IMG/VR virus record: IMGVR_UViG_3300037493_002968
Coordinates: 1-33,655 of that record
Length of the DNA: 33,655 nt
Strand: one strand, 5' to 3'
DNA from: a virus
Positions 15,150 to 19,078 of this stretch are shown here, piece after piece; within the stretch, counting starts at the first letter, position 1; each line of letters begins with the position of its first letter. The position numbers and the translations under genes were made by a program. Under the pieces are notes generated by a model that was not told the DNA's origin, did not search any database, and saw only the letters and a program-made list of their open reading frames with translations.

Positions 15150-15398
15150 TTACTGATTAATTTTTTTAAATCCAAAACTTTCGGGAATCTCGGAAGTATC
15201 TAAATTGCCAATCGAGATTAACTTCATTGCATCGAGTGTGATCTTTGCATTGGCGATGATCTTATCTGATATGCCCATAATCGCATCGGCTCTCTTTGCT
15301 TCAGATTCGATTTGCTCGGATGTTAGTTCTTCATCGTTCAATCTTTCCAGTGCAGCGAATAGATGATCGTTAAGGTCGGATAGTTTGTTCTTTGCCAT
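15150..15398 (-). CDS. Small conserved phage protein (helical)
   Basis: An 82-residue acidic, helical protein of a type common in phages: LSDLNDHLFAALERLNDEEL, then IESEAKRADAIMGISDKIIA and a Lys/Ala helix. I know this pattern from many tailed phages, where it is annotated only as hypothetical and often sits near the HNH/terminase genes, as here. It overlaps the end of the zinc-ribbon gene by 29 nt. No function can be assigned. Confidence 0.6.
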   Translation of the reverse strand: MAKNKLSDLNDHLFAALERLNDEELTSEQIESEAKRADAIMGISDKIIANAKITLDAMKLISIGNLDTSEIPESFGFKKINQ

Positions 15399-16057: not shown

Positions 16058-16225
16058 TTAACTCTGAGTGGTTAAAATAAACTTTATTTTGTCATCCCGT
16101 TTTAAGTGATTAAGTTCAGGATATTGCTCAGATAGTTCAGCATCGGTTAAACTATTGAGTTTAACAAGTAACAACATTGTGTTTGGTGTTAACTTGATTT
16201 CTTGGTTAGAATGGGTTATCGTCAT
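16058..16225 (-). CDS. Small unknown protein after dnaB
   Basis: A 55-residue protein, MTITHSNQEIKLTPNTMLLL and then LNSLTDAELSEQYPEL. I start it at the ATG 16223-16225, which overlaps the dnaB end by 20 nt. A longer frame is open to a TTG at 16270 but that start is less likely. Two short helices are predicted. Function unknown. Confidence 0.5.
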   Translation of the reverse strand: MTITHSNQEIKLTPNTMLLLVKLNSLTDAELSEQYPELNHLKRDDKIKFILTTQS

Positions 16226-17609
16226 TGTAATGATTTGATTGAAAGTTAAACTTAGTTGATTCGATTTCAACGGGAAGGTAAGAACTCATCGGCTGCTGGT
16301 CGGCATCGTAAAAAGATGTTATGGTTTGATTGTTTCTAAATTCCACAGTTCCGGTAGAACCTTGACGGTGCTTTTCAAATAGGTAAAATGTTTCGTTCGT
16401 AAATGGCTTACCTTCATCGTTCGATAAGTTGTAGTACGATGGTCTCCAAACAAAGCAAACCGTATCTGCATCCTGTTCAAGGGATCCTGATTCACGAAGG
16501 TCTGAAAGCATCGGTTTTTTATCTGATCGTTGTTCGACTTGTCTGTTAAGTTGACACAATGCGATTATTGGTATCTGTAGTTCCTTTTGTGCTGCTTTTA
16601 GCGTTCGACTTATTTCTGATACTTCCGCTTCACGATTACCGCCCCTAAAGCCCTCTAATGTCATTAATTGCAAATAATCAATTATAGCCCATTTGCACTG
16701 ACCTTTTCTAACTTGTTGACGGATAACTCGAATTGCTTCGTGAACACCGCATCTTGGTTTGTCGTAAATGGTAAACGGCATCTTTTCAATTTCGCCAATG
16801 GTCGATTCAAATACGTGCAATTCGGGTTGGTTTAAGCTGCCGTCCCTTAAGCGTTTAGAATCGATGCTTCCGGTAGCGTTCTGAAGTATTAATCTTTGAC
16901 AAAGTTGTGATGGGTTCATTTCTAAGTTAAAATAGATACCAGGTTCTTTCGATTGAATCCCGTGAAATAATGCAAGTGCGGTTTTACCCATTGAAGGTCG
17001 ACCAGCTAAGATTATAAATTCAGGTTGCCAACCGCCCGTGAATCTGTTAAGTGCTTTAAGTCCTGTATGAACTCCCGATGTTTTGCCTTGTCGGTTTAGT
17101 TCTTGCCGTCTGAAATAAGCCTCACGTTCGTCTTTGACAAGTTCGGTAGTGGTAATGATATTTGATACAGTCATACCCGTATCCATTAACTCATTCAATC
17201 GTTTGACCATTTCAGTTGCGGTAACGGTCGCATCGTGCCGGTCGTACAATCCGATTGATTCTTCAGTAATGATTTGGTGAATTTGCGATTTCAGATAGAT
17301 GTTACGAAGTTCCATTATGATTGCTTCGTGCGGTTCGAAGAAAGCTGAAACTATTTTATCTAATGAGCGGATAATTGTTATTATGTCGGAATGTTCAAGC
17401 AGCTTGGCAAGTTTATTTTCTTGGCTAAGAAATGCAATGTCGATTGGTAACTTTTTTTTGTGAAGTCGCTTAATTACTTCGAATGCTTTTTTGTATCGAT
17501 CGACTGTAAAGTATTCGTATTTGAGTTGAACGATGATTTCGTCTTTGAATTGATTTGAAGATAGCAGAATCGCTATGATCTTTTCTTCGAGTTCTTGTGA
17601 TGTTATCAT
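16206..17609 (-). CDS. dnaB: Replicative DNA helicase, DnaB family
   Basis: A 467-residue hexameric helicase. The N-terminal domain (1-110) is the DnaB helical collar. The RecA-like C-terminal domain has Walker A GRPSMGKT at 203-210, Glu230 (FNLEM), Walker B WAIIDYLQL at 307-315, the LCQLNR motif at 351-356, and LSDLRESGSLEQDAD at 368-382, all as in bacterial DnaB. It is full length, and I see no primase or intein insertion. It lies 4 nt overlapped with the initiator gene upstream. The pair of initiator and helicase next to each other is the usual phage replication set, and the probable origin is in the upstream gene. Confidence 0.96.
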   Translation of the reverse strand: MITSQELEEKIIAILLSSNQFKDEIIVQLKYEYFTVDRYKKAFEVIKRLHKKKLPIDIAFLSQENKLAKLLEHSDIITIIRSLDKIVSAFFEPHEAIIMELRNIYLKSQIHQIITEESIGLYDRHDATVTATEMVKRLNELMDTGMTVSNIITTTELVKDEREAYFRRQELNRQGKTSGVHTGLKALNRFTGGWQPEFIILAGRPSMGKTALALFHGIQSKEPGIYFNLEMNPSQLCQRLILQNATGSIDSKRLRDGSLNQPELHVFESTIGEIEKMPFTIYDKPRCGVHEAIRVIRQQVRKGQCKWAIIDYLQLMTLEGFRGGNREAEVSEISRTLKAAQKELQIPIIALCQLNRQVEQRSDKKPMLSDLRESGSLEQDADTVCFVWRPSYYNLSNDEGKPFTNETFYLFEKHRQGSTGTVEFRNNQTITSFYDADQQPMSSYLPVEIESTKFNFQSNHYNDDNPF

Positions 17610-18286
17610 TTGTAATGGTTTTGTGATGATCGGTTATACTGAATTTGTTGAGTGACTTTATTGTTTTGTGATCCAACCGGAAATAAGCCGGTCCAACCTT
17701 TCATTATTGATTGGTTGATTCCTTTGATTGCTTCTTCAGGTGATTTGTAAAGTTTACGCATTTCGGAAACTAATAAATCTGCAGCACGTTGGGTAACTGG
17801 TTTCTTAGTTTCAATTCTATTCTGCAGAAATTCGATAAAGACTTTGTTCACGTTTTCATTTTCGGAATAGACCTTTGTTAAATCCGCCCCTTTTGTCTTT
17901 ATAGTCTTTATAGTCTTATCTGTCTTAATAGTCTTATTATGTGTCCAAGTGCTTTCCACGTGCTTTTCATTTGCTTTCCACGTGCTTTCCAAGTGCTTTC
18001 CATTTAATGGAAGGCATATTACTCTATTCTTATACTGATTTGTTGTTTTTGAAACGGTCTGCAGAAACCCAAATTTTTCTAATCGGTCAAGTGTTTTTAA
18101 CATCGTAGTTCGGGAATTGATACCGCAAGTTTCCTGAAGATCAATTAGGATAATTGCAAACTTATCTTTCCAGCCTGACTTATTTGCACGGTTAAGCAAT
18201 GCGAAATAAACTGCAGTGATGTATGGATCGACTTTATCGGGGTTTTCATCAATCCATTGATAGAAGTAATTGAAGTAATCAAACAT
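17606..18286 (-). CDS. Replication initiator, winged-helix, carrying intragenic iterons
   Basis: A 226-residue protein. Residues 5-95 look like a winged-helix domain (WIDENPDKVDPYITAVYFAL, LQETCGINSRTTMLKTLDRL, FGFLQTVSKTTNQYKNRV), a type used by phage replication initiators and DnaD-like helicase loaders. A low-complexity linker (about 97-130) is encoded by two sets of DNA repeats. A C-terminal helical part (RAADLLVSEMRKLYKSPEEA) may contact DnaB. It is followed immediately by dnaB. The start ATG stands 7 nt after the T9 tail of a strong terminator hairpin, so expression needs readthrough or a promoter close by. The role as initiator is inferred. Confidence 0.7.
   Translation of the reverse strand: MFDYFNYFYQWIDENPDKVDPYITAVYFALLNRANKSGWKDKFAIILIDLQETCGINSRTTMLKTLDRLEKFGFLQTVSKTTNQYKNRVICLPLNGKHLESTWKANEKHVESTWTHNKTIKTDKTIKTIKTKGADLTKVYSENENVNKVFIEFLQNRIETKKPVTQRAADLLVSEMRKLYKSPEEAIKGINQSIMKGWTGLFPVGSQNNKVTQQIQYNRSSQNHYK
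17895..17939 (+). repeat. Five AT-rich 9-bp tandem repeats (unwinding-region candidate)
   Basis: Units beginning GTCTT start at 17895, 17904, 17913, 17922 and 17931, each 9 bp (GTCTTTATA, GTCTTTATA, GTCTTATCT, GTCTTAATA, GTCTTATTA). They are AT-rich and lie next to the 11-bp array, an arrangement like the AT-rich region beside origin iterons. Because the period is a multiple of three they also encode a KT(I/D) repeat. Confidence 0.7.
17948..18002 (+). repeat. Five 11-bp iterons (probable origin)
   Basis: The ten-base unit GTGCTTTCCA or a one-base variant starts at 17949, 17960, 17971, 17982 and 17993, exactly 11 bp apart; three copies are identical. Eleven is not a multiple of three, so the repeat is not simply due to protein repetition. 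The period is close to one turn of DNA. A 7-bp inverted repeat TTCCATT/AATGGAA (17998-18012) borders it. Confidence 0.8.
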
Positions 18287-18292
18287 AACATC

Positions 18293-18368
18293 AAAAAAAA
18301 ACCCAATACAAGCTGCGGTGGAATCGGTTTAGTAGTGTTGACTACTTTACCTCGCAGCCCGTATTGGG
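18293..18368 (-). terminator. Intrinsic terminator before the initiator gene
   Basis: A 16-bp main stem (two G-U pairs on the minus strand) with inner stem is followed at once by nine T (18301 to 18293). It would end transcripts from the DnaA-like gene 7 nt before the initiator ATG. It forms the core of the structured RNA described above. Confidence 0.75.
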
Positions 18369-18406
18369 CGGTTTAATTTCTTTCTATTCAGGATTCCACC
18401 TCTGAA
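18293..18406 (-). ncRNA. Structured RNA / attenuator upstream of the initiator gene
   Basis: On the minus-strand RNA a 5-bp hairpin (18387-18391 with 18402-18406) has loop bases 18392-18400 (GGTGGAATC), which are exactly complementary over 9 nt to 18317-18325 (GATTCCACC), located inside the downstream hairpin. That hairpin pairs 18353-18368 with 18302-18317 over 16 bp, has a nested stem (18331-18336 / 18341-18346, loop of four) and ends in T9. The two non-Watson-Crick positions of the main stem are G-U on the minus strand and A-C on the plus strand, so the RNA acts in the minus direction. A loop-to-bulge pairing or a switch between forms is suggested. No known family recognised. Confidence 0.6.
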
Positions 18407-18451
18407 CGTGCTGTAAAGATAAAAATAAAATTGATTCGATTTAATTATTAT

Positions 18452-19078
18452 TTAGTAGTCTATACAACTTTCATCCCATTCAACCGCACTATTCATAATA
18501 ATTTCGTGGTCGAACACTCGCTTCATCATAAGGTAAGTTGAATCGTTTGTATCGATTAGATTTGATTCTGATAACTGGGCGTGATAGACCGTAGCGTGGT
18601 TAAAAGGTGTTGACCGTCCAATGGCTTCTGCAACGGCTCGACCGATCATAGCAAATCCGAACCTATCCCCACGGATTGAAAGCAGATAATTGAAGATAAG
18701 ATAACGCTTGTACACTTCATCAATTTCACGATTAAGCAGAACACGACCAAACATCTTAACAATGATTGAGTTTGCTAATTTCGCTTCATTAAGACAATCG
18801 TTATATCTTGAATTAAAATTGTATGATTTTGTTTTAACGGGAGCGTCTACAAATTCAGGTAATGTCTTTCTGATTCCTTTGGACCAATAATAAATGTGTT
18901 CCCAAAATGCATAACCTTCATCTGTGCCGGAAGGATGCCACGGTACTAACTTTAGAATAGCATCGGGTAAATCTCGCACGATTCTATTTTGGGTGGTGTA
19001 CTTATGGGCTAAGGATAAGTAAGGTTCGGGTAATTCTTCATTGATTACCTGATGTATAGTTTTTAGTGTAAAATTCAT
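18452..19078 (-). CDS. Protein with a DnaA domain IV-like C-terminal HTH
   Basis: A 208-residue protein. Residues about 122-170 (YKRYLIFNYLLSI, RFGFAMIGRAVAEAI, FNHATVYHAQ) resemble DnaA domain IV, in which an IGxxFGxRDHxTVxHA helix-turn-helix binds DnaA boxes. Here the core reads NHATVYHA at 160-167. The N-terminal half (residues 1-120) has no AAA+ motifs, so it is not a full DnaA. The gene lies just upstream of the structured RNA and initiator, which suggests a role in origin binding or replication control. Family membership is my pattern call, and the family of such phage proteins is mostly annotated as hypothetical. Confidence 0.6.
   Translation of the reverse strand: MNFTLKTIHQVINEELPEPYLSLAHKYTTQNRIVRDLPDAILKLVPWHPSGTDEGYAFWEHIYYWSKGIRKTLPEFVDAPVKTKSYNFNSRYNDCLNEAKLANSIIVKMFGRVLLNREIDEVYKRYLIFNYLLSIRGDRFGFAMIGRAVAEAIGRSTPFNHATVYHAQLSESNLIDTNDSTYLMMKRVFDHEIIMNSAVEWDESCIDY

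Follow-up and report, generated by a model that had tools for sequence, protein, structure and literature searches.

A new family of pseudoknotted leader RNAs at the head of replication operons in phages of probable Bacteroidota hosts

Introduction

In plasmid attenuators of the pT181 and pIP501 kind, the level of the replication initiator is set by termination in the leader, and these systems need an RNA transcribed from the opposite strand. Riboswitches of the pfl/ZTP type carry a pseudoknotted domain and a terminator in a 5' leader. In satellite phage P4, the replication genes are shut off by RNA-dependent premature termination in the untranslated leader; the CI RNA is released by processing and base-pairs with seqA and seqC, two sites flanking it (PMC4825925). 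The c4 RNA of phages P1 and P7 gives heteroimmunity (PMC12197685).

The leader RNA described here was found in the virus record IMGVR_UViG_3300037493_002968 (the window, i.e., the whole analyzed stretch of 33,655 nt). It resembles the P4 CI RNA in being a small leader RNA of replication genes with short complementary sequences in the same transcript, but it has a single loop/bulge pair within a compact molecule closed by an intrinsic terminator, the hosts are different, and no sequence relation was found. Two separate target sites of the P4 type, up- and downstream, were not detected, nor were allele-specific sites elsewhere. Like c4 (RF01695), it is a phage RNA whose allele-like pairing sequences differ between close relatives, whereas c4 blocks the ant mRNA and no separate target gene was found here; the leader does not match the RF01695 model of c4 antisense RNA. 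In contrast to the plasmid attenuators, opposite-strand promoters are depleted at the leader (6 observed vs. 16.7 expected). Unlike in the riboswitches, no conserved ligand pocket was seen, the letters of the pseudoknot are free to vary, the folded domain includes the terminator, and there is no Rfam match. By analogy, the leader would work most like the P4 replication leader with its CI RNA, and its alleles appear to behave most like those of c4 RNA; by the tests made (second target site, Rfam match, antisense promoter), it belongs to neither system.

Results

Organization of the leader RNA in the window

Nearly all genes of the window lie on the minus strand. A 165-nt gap, which contains the leader RNA, separates a 208-aa gene (18452-19078) from the replication initiator gene. 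The features of the leader and of the genes that follow it are:

18414..18421, minus strand: promoter -7 box TATCTTTA of the Bacteroidota TAnnTTTG type, 6 nt before P1
18386..18407, minus strand: hairpin P1, GTTCAG-A-GGTGGAATC-CTGAAT, with the stem formed by 18407-18402 and 18391-18386
18392..18400, minus strand: P1 loop GGTGGAATC, the 5' strand of the pseudoknot, exact complement of 18317-18325
18370..18385, minus strand: A-rich single-stranded linker, unpaired in the centroid fold and A-rich in all relatives
18301..18369, minus strand: terminator hairpin P2 (GCCCAATAC..GCTGC / GCAGC..GTATTGGGT), within which P3 and the 3' pseudoknot strand lie
18326..18351, minus strand: variable hairpin P3 (GG..AGTAGT/ACTACT..CC), read from the sequence, with covarying closing pairs
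18317..18325, minus strand: bulge GATTCCACC on the 3' side of the terminator hairpin, the 3' strand of the pseudoknot and complement of the P1 loop
18293..18301, minus strand: T9 tract, the predicted 3' end of the terminated RNA
17606..18286, minus strand: O-like replication initiator gene (phrog_678, replication initiation O-like, 4.7e-12), the first gene after the leader
16206..17609, minus strand: DnaB-like replicative helicase gene (PF03796, 2e-76; phrog_19, 4.5e-82), the next gene of the operon

On the minus strand, the order is thus promoter box, P1, A-rich linker, terminator hairpin with its bulge, T9, and the initiator ATG at 18286, with 6 nt between T9 and the ATG. The complementarity of the P1 loop and the bulge was recovered independently by an inverted-repeat search (inverted pair I15), and no other exact site for the loop was found near the element. 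By our own estimate, the chance expectation of an exact 9-nt complement within 115 nt is about 0.03. The minus strand has a folding energy of -42.7 kcal/mol (z = -4.25), matched by none of 200 shuffles, and the plus strand has a z of -3.18, and the tandem G-U pairs of the stem can form on the minus strand only. Taken by itself, before any relatives were considered, the window was suggestive of a real loop-bulge pairing. The first-pass annotation of this locus had placed the T9-ended terminator right before the initiator ATG, which is correct except that the distance is 6 rather than 7 nt, and had noted that the G-U pairs belong to the transcribed strand, as is indeed the case; its description was accurate overall, with coordinates off by one or two bases.

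Several other features of the window were noted. The 208-aa gene (18452-19078, minus strand) upstream of the leader has no Pfam or PHROG match; its C-terminal half, judged by eye, resembles a helix-turn-helix of the DnaA domain IV type, and a DnaA-annotated gene also lies upstream of the leader in phages P12002L and phi19:3. Four iteron-like direct repeats at 11-nt spacing, with GTGCTTTCCA[C/A] units, occur within the initiator gene (17944-18005); they resemble the iterons within lambda O and represent a candidate replication origin. An 82-aa protein (15150-15398, minus strand) matches phrog_2044, labelled 'RNA polymerase beta subunit' (1.3e-24); it is far too short for a beta subunit and possibly represents a mislabelled family or an RNA polymerase-binding protein. 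No integrase was recognized among the window proteins tested. The terminase is closest to sequences of unannotated gut phages and Bacteroides phages, with many Flavobacterium phages among the matches. Based on these terminase matches and the TAnnTTTG-type promoter box, the hosts of the leader-bearing phages are very probably Bacteroidota.

Covariation in relatives of the leader

Pattern scans of phage contigs yielded approximately 100 distinct relatives. Among relatives of the initiator in IMG/VR, the element was present upstream in every locus with enough sequence, and the loop words differed, each having its exact complement. The least biased test used 60 full-length stretches picked by the P1 and stem-start motif, ignoring the complement: an exact 9-nt complement was present in 59, and the sole exception was a chance match in a coding sequence. 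A covariance model, R1, was built without the pseudoknot pairs and used to align 100 elements. In this alignment, 98.4% of cells pair, compared to 28-44% in slid controls, and two-sided changes occur in 23 of the 31 pairs, the pseudoknot pairs not having been fitted.

Wherever letters are present, the eight core loop-bulge pairs are Watson-Crick (100%), with no G-U pairs, while the ninth pair, adjoining P2, is absent in 18 of 99. Two-sided changes were observed in five of the six pairs of the P1 stem among 99 distinct relatives; this covariation appears once members found from the 3' half are added, and distant members have P1 stems such as CGG/CCG, CGA/TCG, and AAG/CTT. In P2, 11 of 14 pairs covary and 98.9% of cells are paired; the closing pairs of P3 covary as well. 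Some unpaired positions are also conserved, such as the GA between P2 and P3 and a AAAACATT-like linker. At the level of comparative sequence analysis, the covariation proves the pairing, and the leader represents a real RNA family with a loop-to-bulge pseudoknot. The first-pass annotation had reported a structured RNA with nine loop bases exactly complementary to the next hairpin and had named the lack of covariation among related phages as its refutation; the complement recurs with Watson-Crick core pairs, and the covariation was found.

Position relative to promoters and replication genes

In 97 of 98 relatives, P1 is preceded at 3-6 nt by a TAnnTT promoter box, and in 94 of 95 a downstream ATG begins 0-20 nt past the T-run. 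The interval from the pseudoknot strand to this ATG lacks a TAnnTTTG box in 92 of 95 relatives and has one in three; as there is no room for a promoter from terminator to ATG, the operon mRNA must read through the terminator. The genes upstream of the leader belong to many families. Downstream, nearly all relatives have an initiator of the DUF6291 type (PF19808) or the MFDY type within one or two genes; the MFDY-type initiator is preceded by a small ORF, and a DnaB-type helicase often follows the initiator. Loci retrieved by the initiator protein alone, including DUF6291, contain the element wherever enough upstream sequence is available, and in two of those retrieved by the DUF6291 initiator (L331/L332) even the first core pair is swapped. 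Eight of the 12 initiator-relative loci found first (L002-L007, L011, and L013) have another small gene separating the terminator from the initiator, and the RNA is therefore the leader of a replication operon rather than of the initiator gene alone, for which it had originally been taken; that the terminator precedes the initiator still holds. In loci L006 and L007, HNH endonuclease genes have inserted precisely between terminator and initiator.

Replacement of the pairing words

The 98 relatives contain 17 core loop words, each with its own complement, and two further cores were found in L331/L332 and L342. Differences at one or two of ~96 backbone positions can accompany a 2-bp difference in the core (e.g., L007/L070 and L063/L168). 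In contig pairs with flanks at least 97% identical, which are not independent of each other, the words were either the same or 2-4 bp apart, never 1 bp. Some changes are swaps of the whole element (L136/L160), and others affect only the word. The 17 alleles, which are likewise not independent, are nearly isoenergetic (s.d. of 1.06 vs. 2.35 kcal/mol for all 1024). Unexpectedly, the pairing alleles turn over more rapidly than the remainder of the RNA and its flanks. By its resemblance to phage immunity regions, this fast replacement suggests self-specific recognition in trans.

Two ecological checks did not support such recognition. Phages from one sample do not avoid a shared allele (7 shared pairs vs. 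3.8 expected), and five cultured phages of two genera, growing on Flavobacterium hosts LMO9 and LMO6, have one common leader word. A search for same-allele trans targets in 0.95 Mb of loci and eight whole contigs revealed no excess; extra copies of its own word in contig G007 occur in varied contexts and were taken as chance.

The leader architecture in cultured phages

By looking upstream of the replication genes, we found the same architecture, unrelated in sequence, in cultured Flavobacteriaceae phages, namely 11b, the tooticki and lillamy types, elemo (elemoA), Harreka_1, P12002L, and phi19:3. These members were reached via replication-protein searches, not via RNA similarity:

P12002L: P1 GTAG-GGTCGTAG-CTAC, with the complement CTACGACC inside the terminator
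phi19:3: CTCTCACAA with TTGTGAGAG, found by eye only
11b: CGGGCAGG with CCTGCCCG
tooticki9-1, lillamy9-7, snork9-1, hemulen6-1, and stinky9-1: TAATG-AAGTGAGACG-CATTA with CGTCTCAC
elemoA: GTTATTA-AGGTGAGAGC-TAATAAC with GCTCTCA
Harreka_1: GTGGTGG with CCACCAC

Model R1 does not detect the cultured members tested, and their homology is argued from shared architecture and order; for elemo and tooticki, the loops additionally resemble the main family, and few invariant unpaired bases are common to the deep members. A blind detector of this architecture (a promoter, a P1 with 4 bp or more, 7 nt or more of loop complement within a terminator hairpin, and T5) produced 104 matches in 3.5 Mb vs. none in reversed sequence, a measure of specificity rather than frequency, as the 3.5-Mb set was family-enriched by construction. 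The detector alone recovered most of the cultured members and also gave L406 and perhaps L372, likewise before replication genes. The possible same-order leader in L372 (1348-1500), with a Shine-Dalgarno AGGAGG before the ATG, would put the architecture outside Bacteroidota.

Distribution and novelty of the family

No Rfam 15 family reached its gathering score in the window; even at E 10, only chance eukaryotic or sRNA models matched near the element. Five cultured-phage loci compared with Rfam gave tRNA only. A strict pattern search of 84,980 bacterial and archaeal species genomes returned six matches, all by chance and without structure, and a similarity search of the INPHARED phages with the RNA did not find the main sequence family. 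No description of the leader was found in literature searches of open-licence papers. We concluded that the RNA family is real and new, within a broader architectural class in Bacteroidota phages.

Exactly one sense copy is present in 34 of 36 whole phage contigs, and the remaining two are joined phage pairs. The presence of two alleles within one phage was considered for these double-element contigs, IMGVR_UViG_3300037493_001386 (G009, L345-L347) and 3300044695_002763 (G023, L348-L350), and rejected: each consists of two related genomes joined head to tail, with halves about 75-97% identical, and they are probably assembly chimeras or concatemers.

Discussion

The simplest reading of the position and order of the elements, and one that we regard as rather probable, is that the RNA acts as an attenuating leader for the replication operon of these phages. 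RNA polymerase would start at the promoter abutting P1 and produce a compact RNA of ~110 nt, in which P1 folds first and presents its loop. The internal bulge of the emerging terminator hairpin would then pair with this loop, most transcripts would terminate at the T-run to give a short stable RNA, with the read-through fraction serving as the initiator/helicase mRNA. The loop-bulge pairing would set this fraction and, hence, the initiator level. The fold, the order from promoter through RNA and terminator to ATG, the association with replication genes, and the lack of any other promoter are all observed, and the general features of an intrinsic-terminator leader are present (a promoter, a leader with a terminator, a gene directly after, and no promoter between); from these, we infer partial termination and its change by the loop-bulge pairing. 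Because the complement emerges as the polymerase nears the T-run, the pairing could act only at termination. The earlier idea of an undescribed attenuator or copy-control RNA is supported by this position at the head of the replication operon, but not the proposed base-pairing switch between terminated and read-through forms: the pairing shares at most one G-C with the terminator stem, and both can form together. As the two do not compete for bases, the sequence forces no switch and does not reveal the sign of the effect. Against the attenuator, a leader confined to cis action would not explain why pairing alleles are replaced so fast, and promoters further upstream could also feed the operon.

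This replacement is what a self-recognizing copy-control or immunity RNA would explain, a reading that we consider unlikely though still worth weighing. The terminated RNA would act in trans on the same site of sister genomes or of a superinfecting relative, and the loop/bulge alleles would define compatibility groups, as for the P4 CI RNA or the P1/P7 c4 RNA. The alleles change faster than the backbone, skip single-bp steps between contigs with close flanks, and are nearly equal in energy, and there are precedents for RNA-dependent termination in P4 (PMC4825925) and for heteroimmunity with c4 (PMC12197685). The sharing of words within samples and among the five cultured phages argues against it, as does the lack of a recognizable integrase among the window proteins tested; moreover, both partners would be masked in a free RNA by its own internal pairing. 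Slightly more doubtful is the specific version of a phage RNA identity code, in which the terminated RNA would recognize only leaders with the same word and throttle their replication.

An independent small RNA with another target (a host or phage mRNA), with an incidental position and the operon read from upstream, is improbable. It would fit the own promoter and terminator, the compact fold, and the single copy per phage, but no excess of extra matching sites for the loop allele was seen in its own phage relative to other alleles, the loop is engaged in internal pairing, and the link to replication genes survives deep sequence divergence. We assign no better chance to the pseudoknot as a scaffold for a protein, most likely the initiator itself, feeding back on read-through or translation. 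Autoregulation is common among initiators, and the conserved unpaired positions (the GA and the linker) would suit a bound protein, but the element is kept before unrelated initiator families, and the scarcity of invariant unpaired bases across deep members also argues against such a scaffold. An origin element, acting as an RNA primer or a single-stranded DNA structure for the start of replication, is very unlikely: the element adjoins the initiator and helicase genes, and the iteron-like 11-nt repeats lie nearby within the initiator gene, but the G-U pairs make the stem good only as minus-strand RNA, and the promoter and terminator frame the element exactly. Finally, an ordinary terminator with a chance complement is ruled out by the covariation, the 59 of 60 complements in the unbiased set, and the outcome of the architecture search (104 vs. 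0), even though this AT-rich region does contain inverted pairs of at least 9 nt by chance (17 in 1.6 kb).

The leader thus represents a strongly covarying class of structured RNA at the point where DNA replication of phages is controlled, in a bacterial group of major ecological importance, and its presence in cultured phages makes it testable at once. Lytic phages of Bacteroidota have few described control circuits, and the speed at which matched words are exchanged suggests RNA-based recognition of self among phages, which is known from few systems. If the identity code is true, a matched, swappable word of 8-9 nt would provide both copy counting and sister-phage exclusion without a protein repressor, and the code would span phages of Flavobacteriaceae, including lytic ones.
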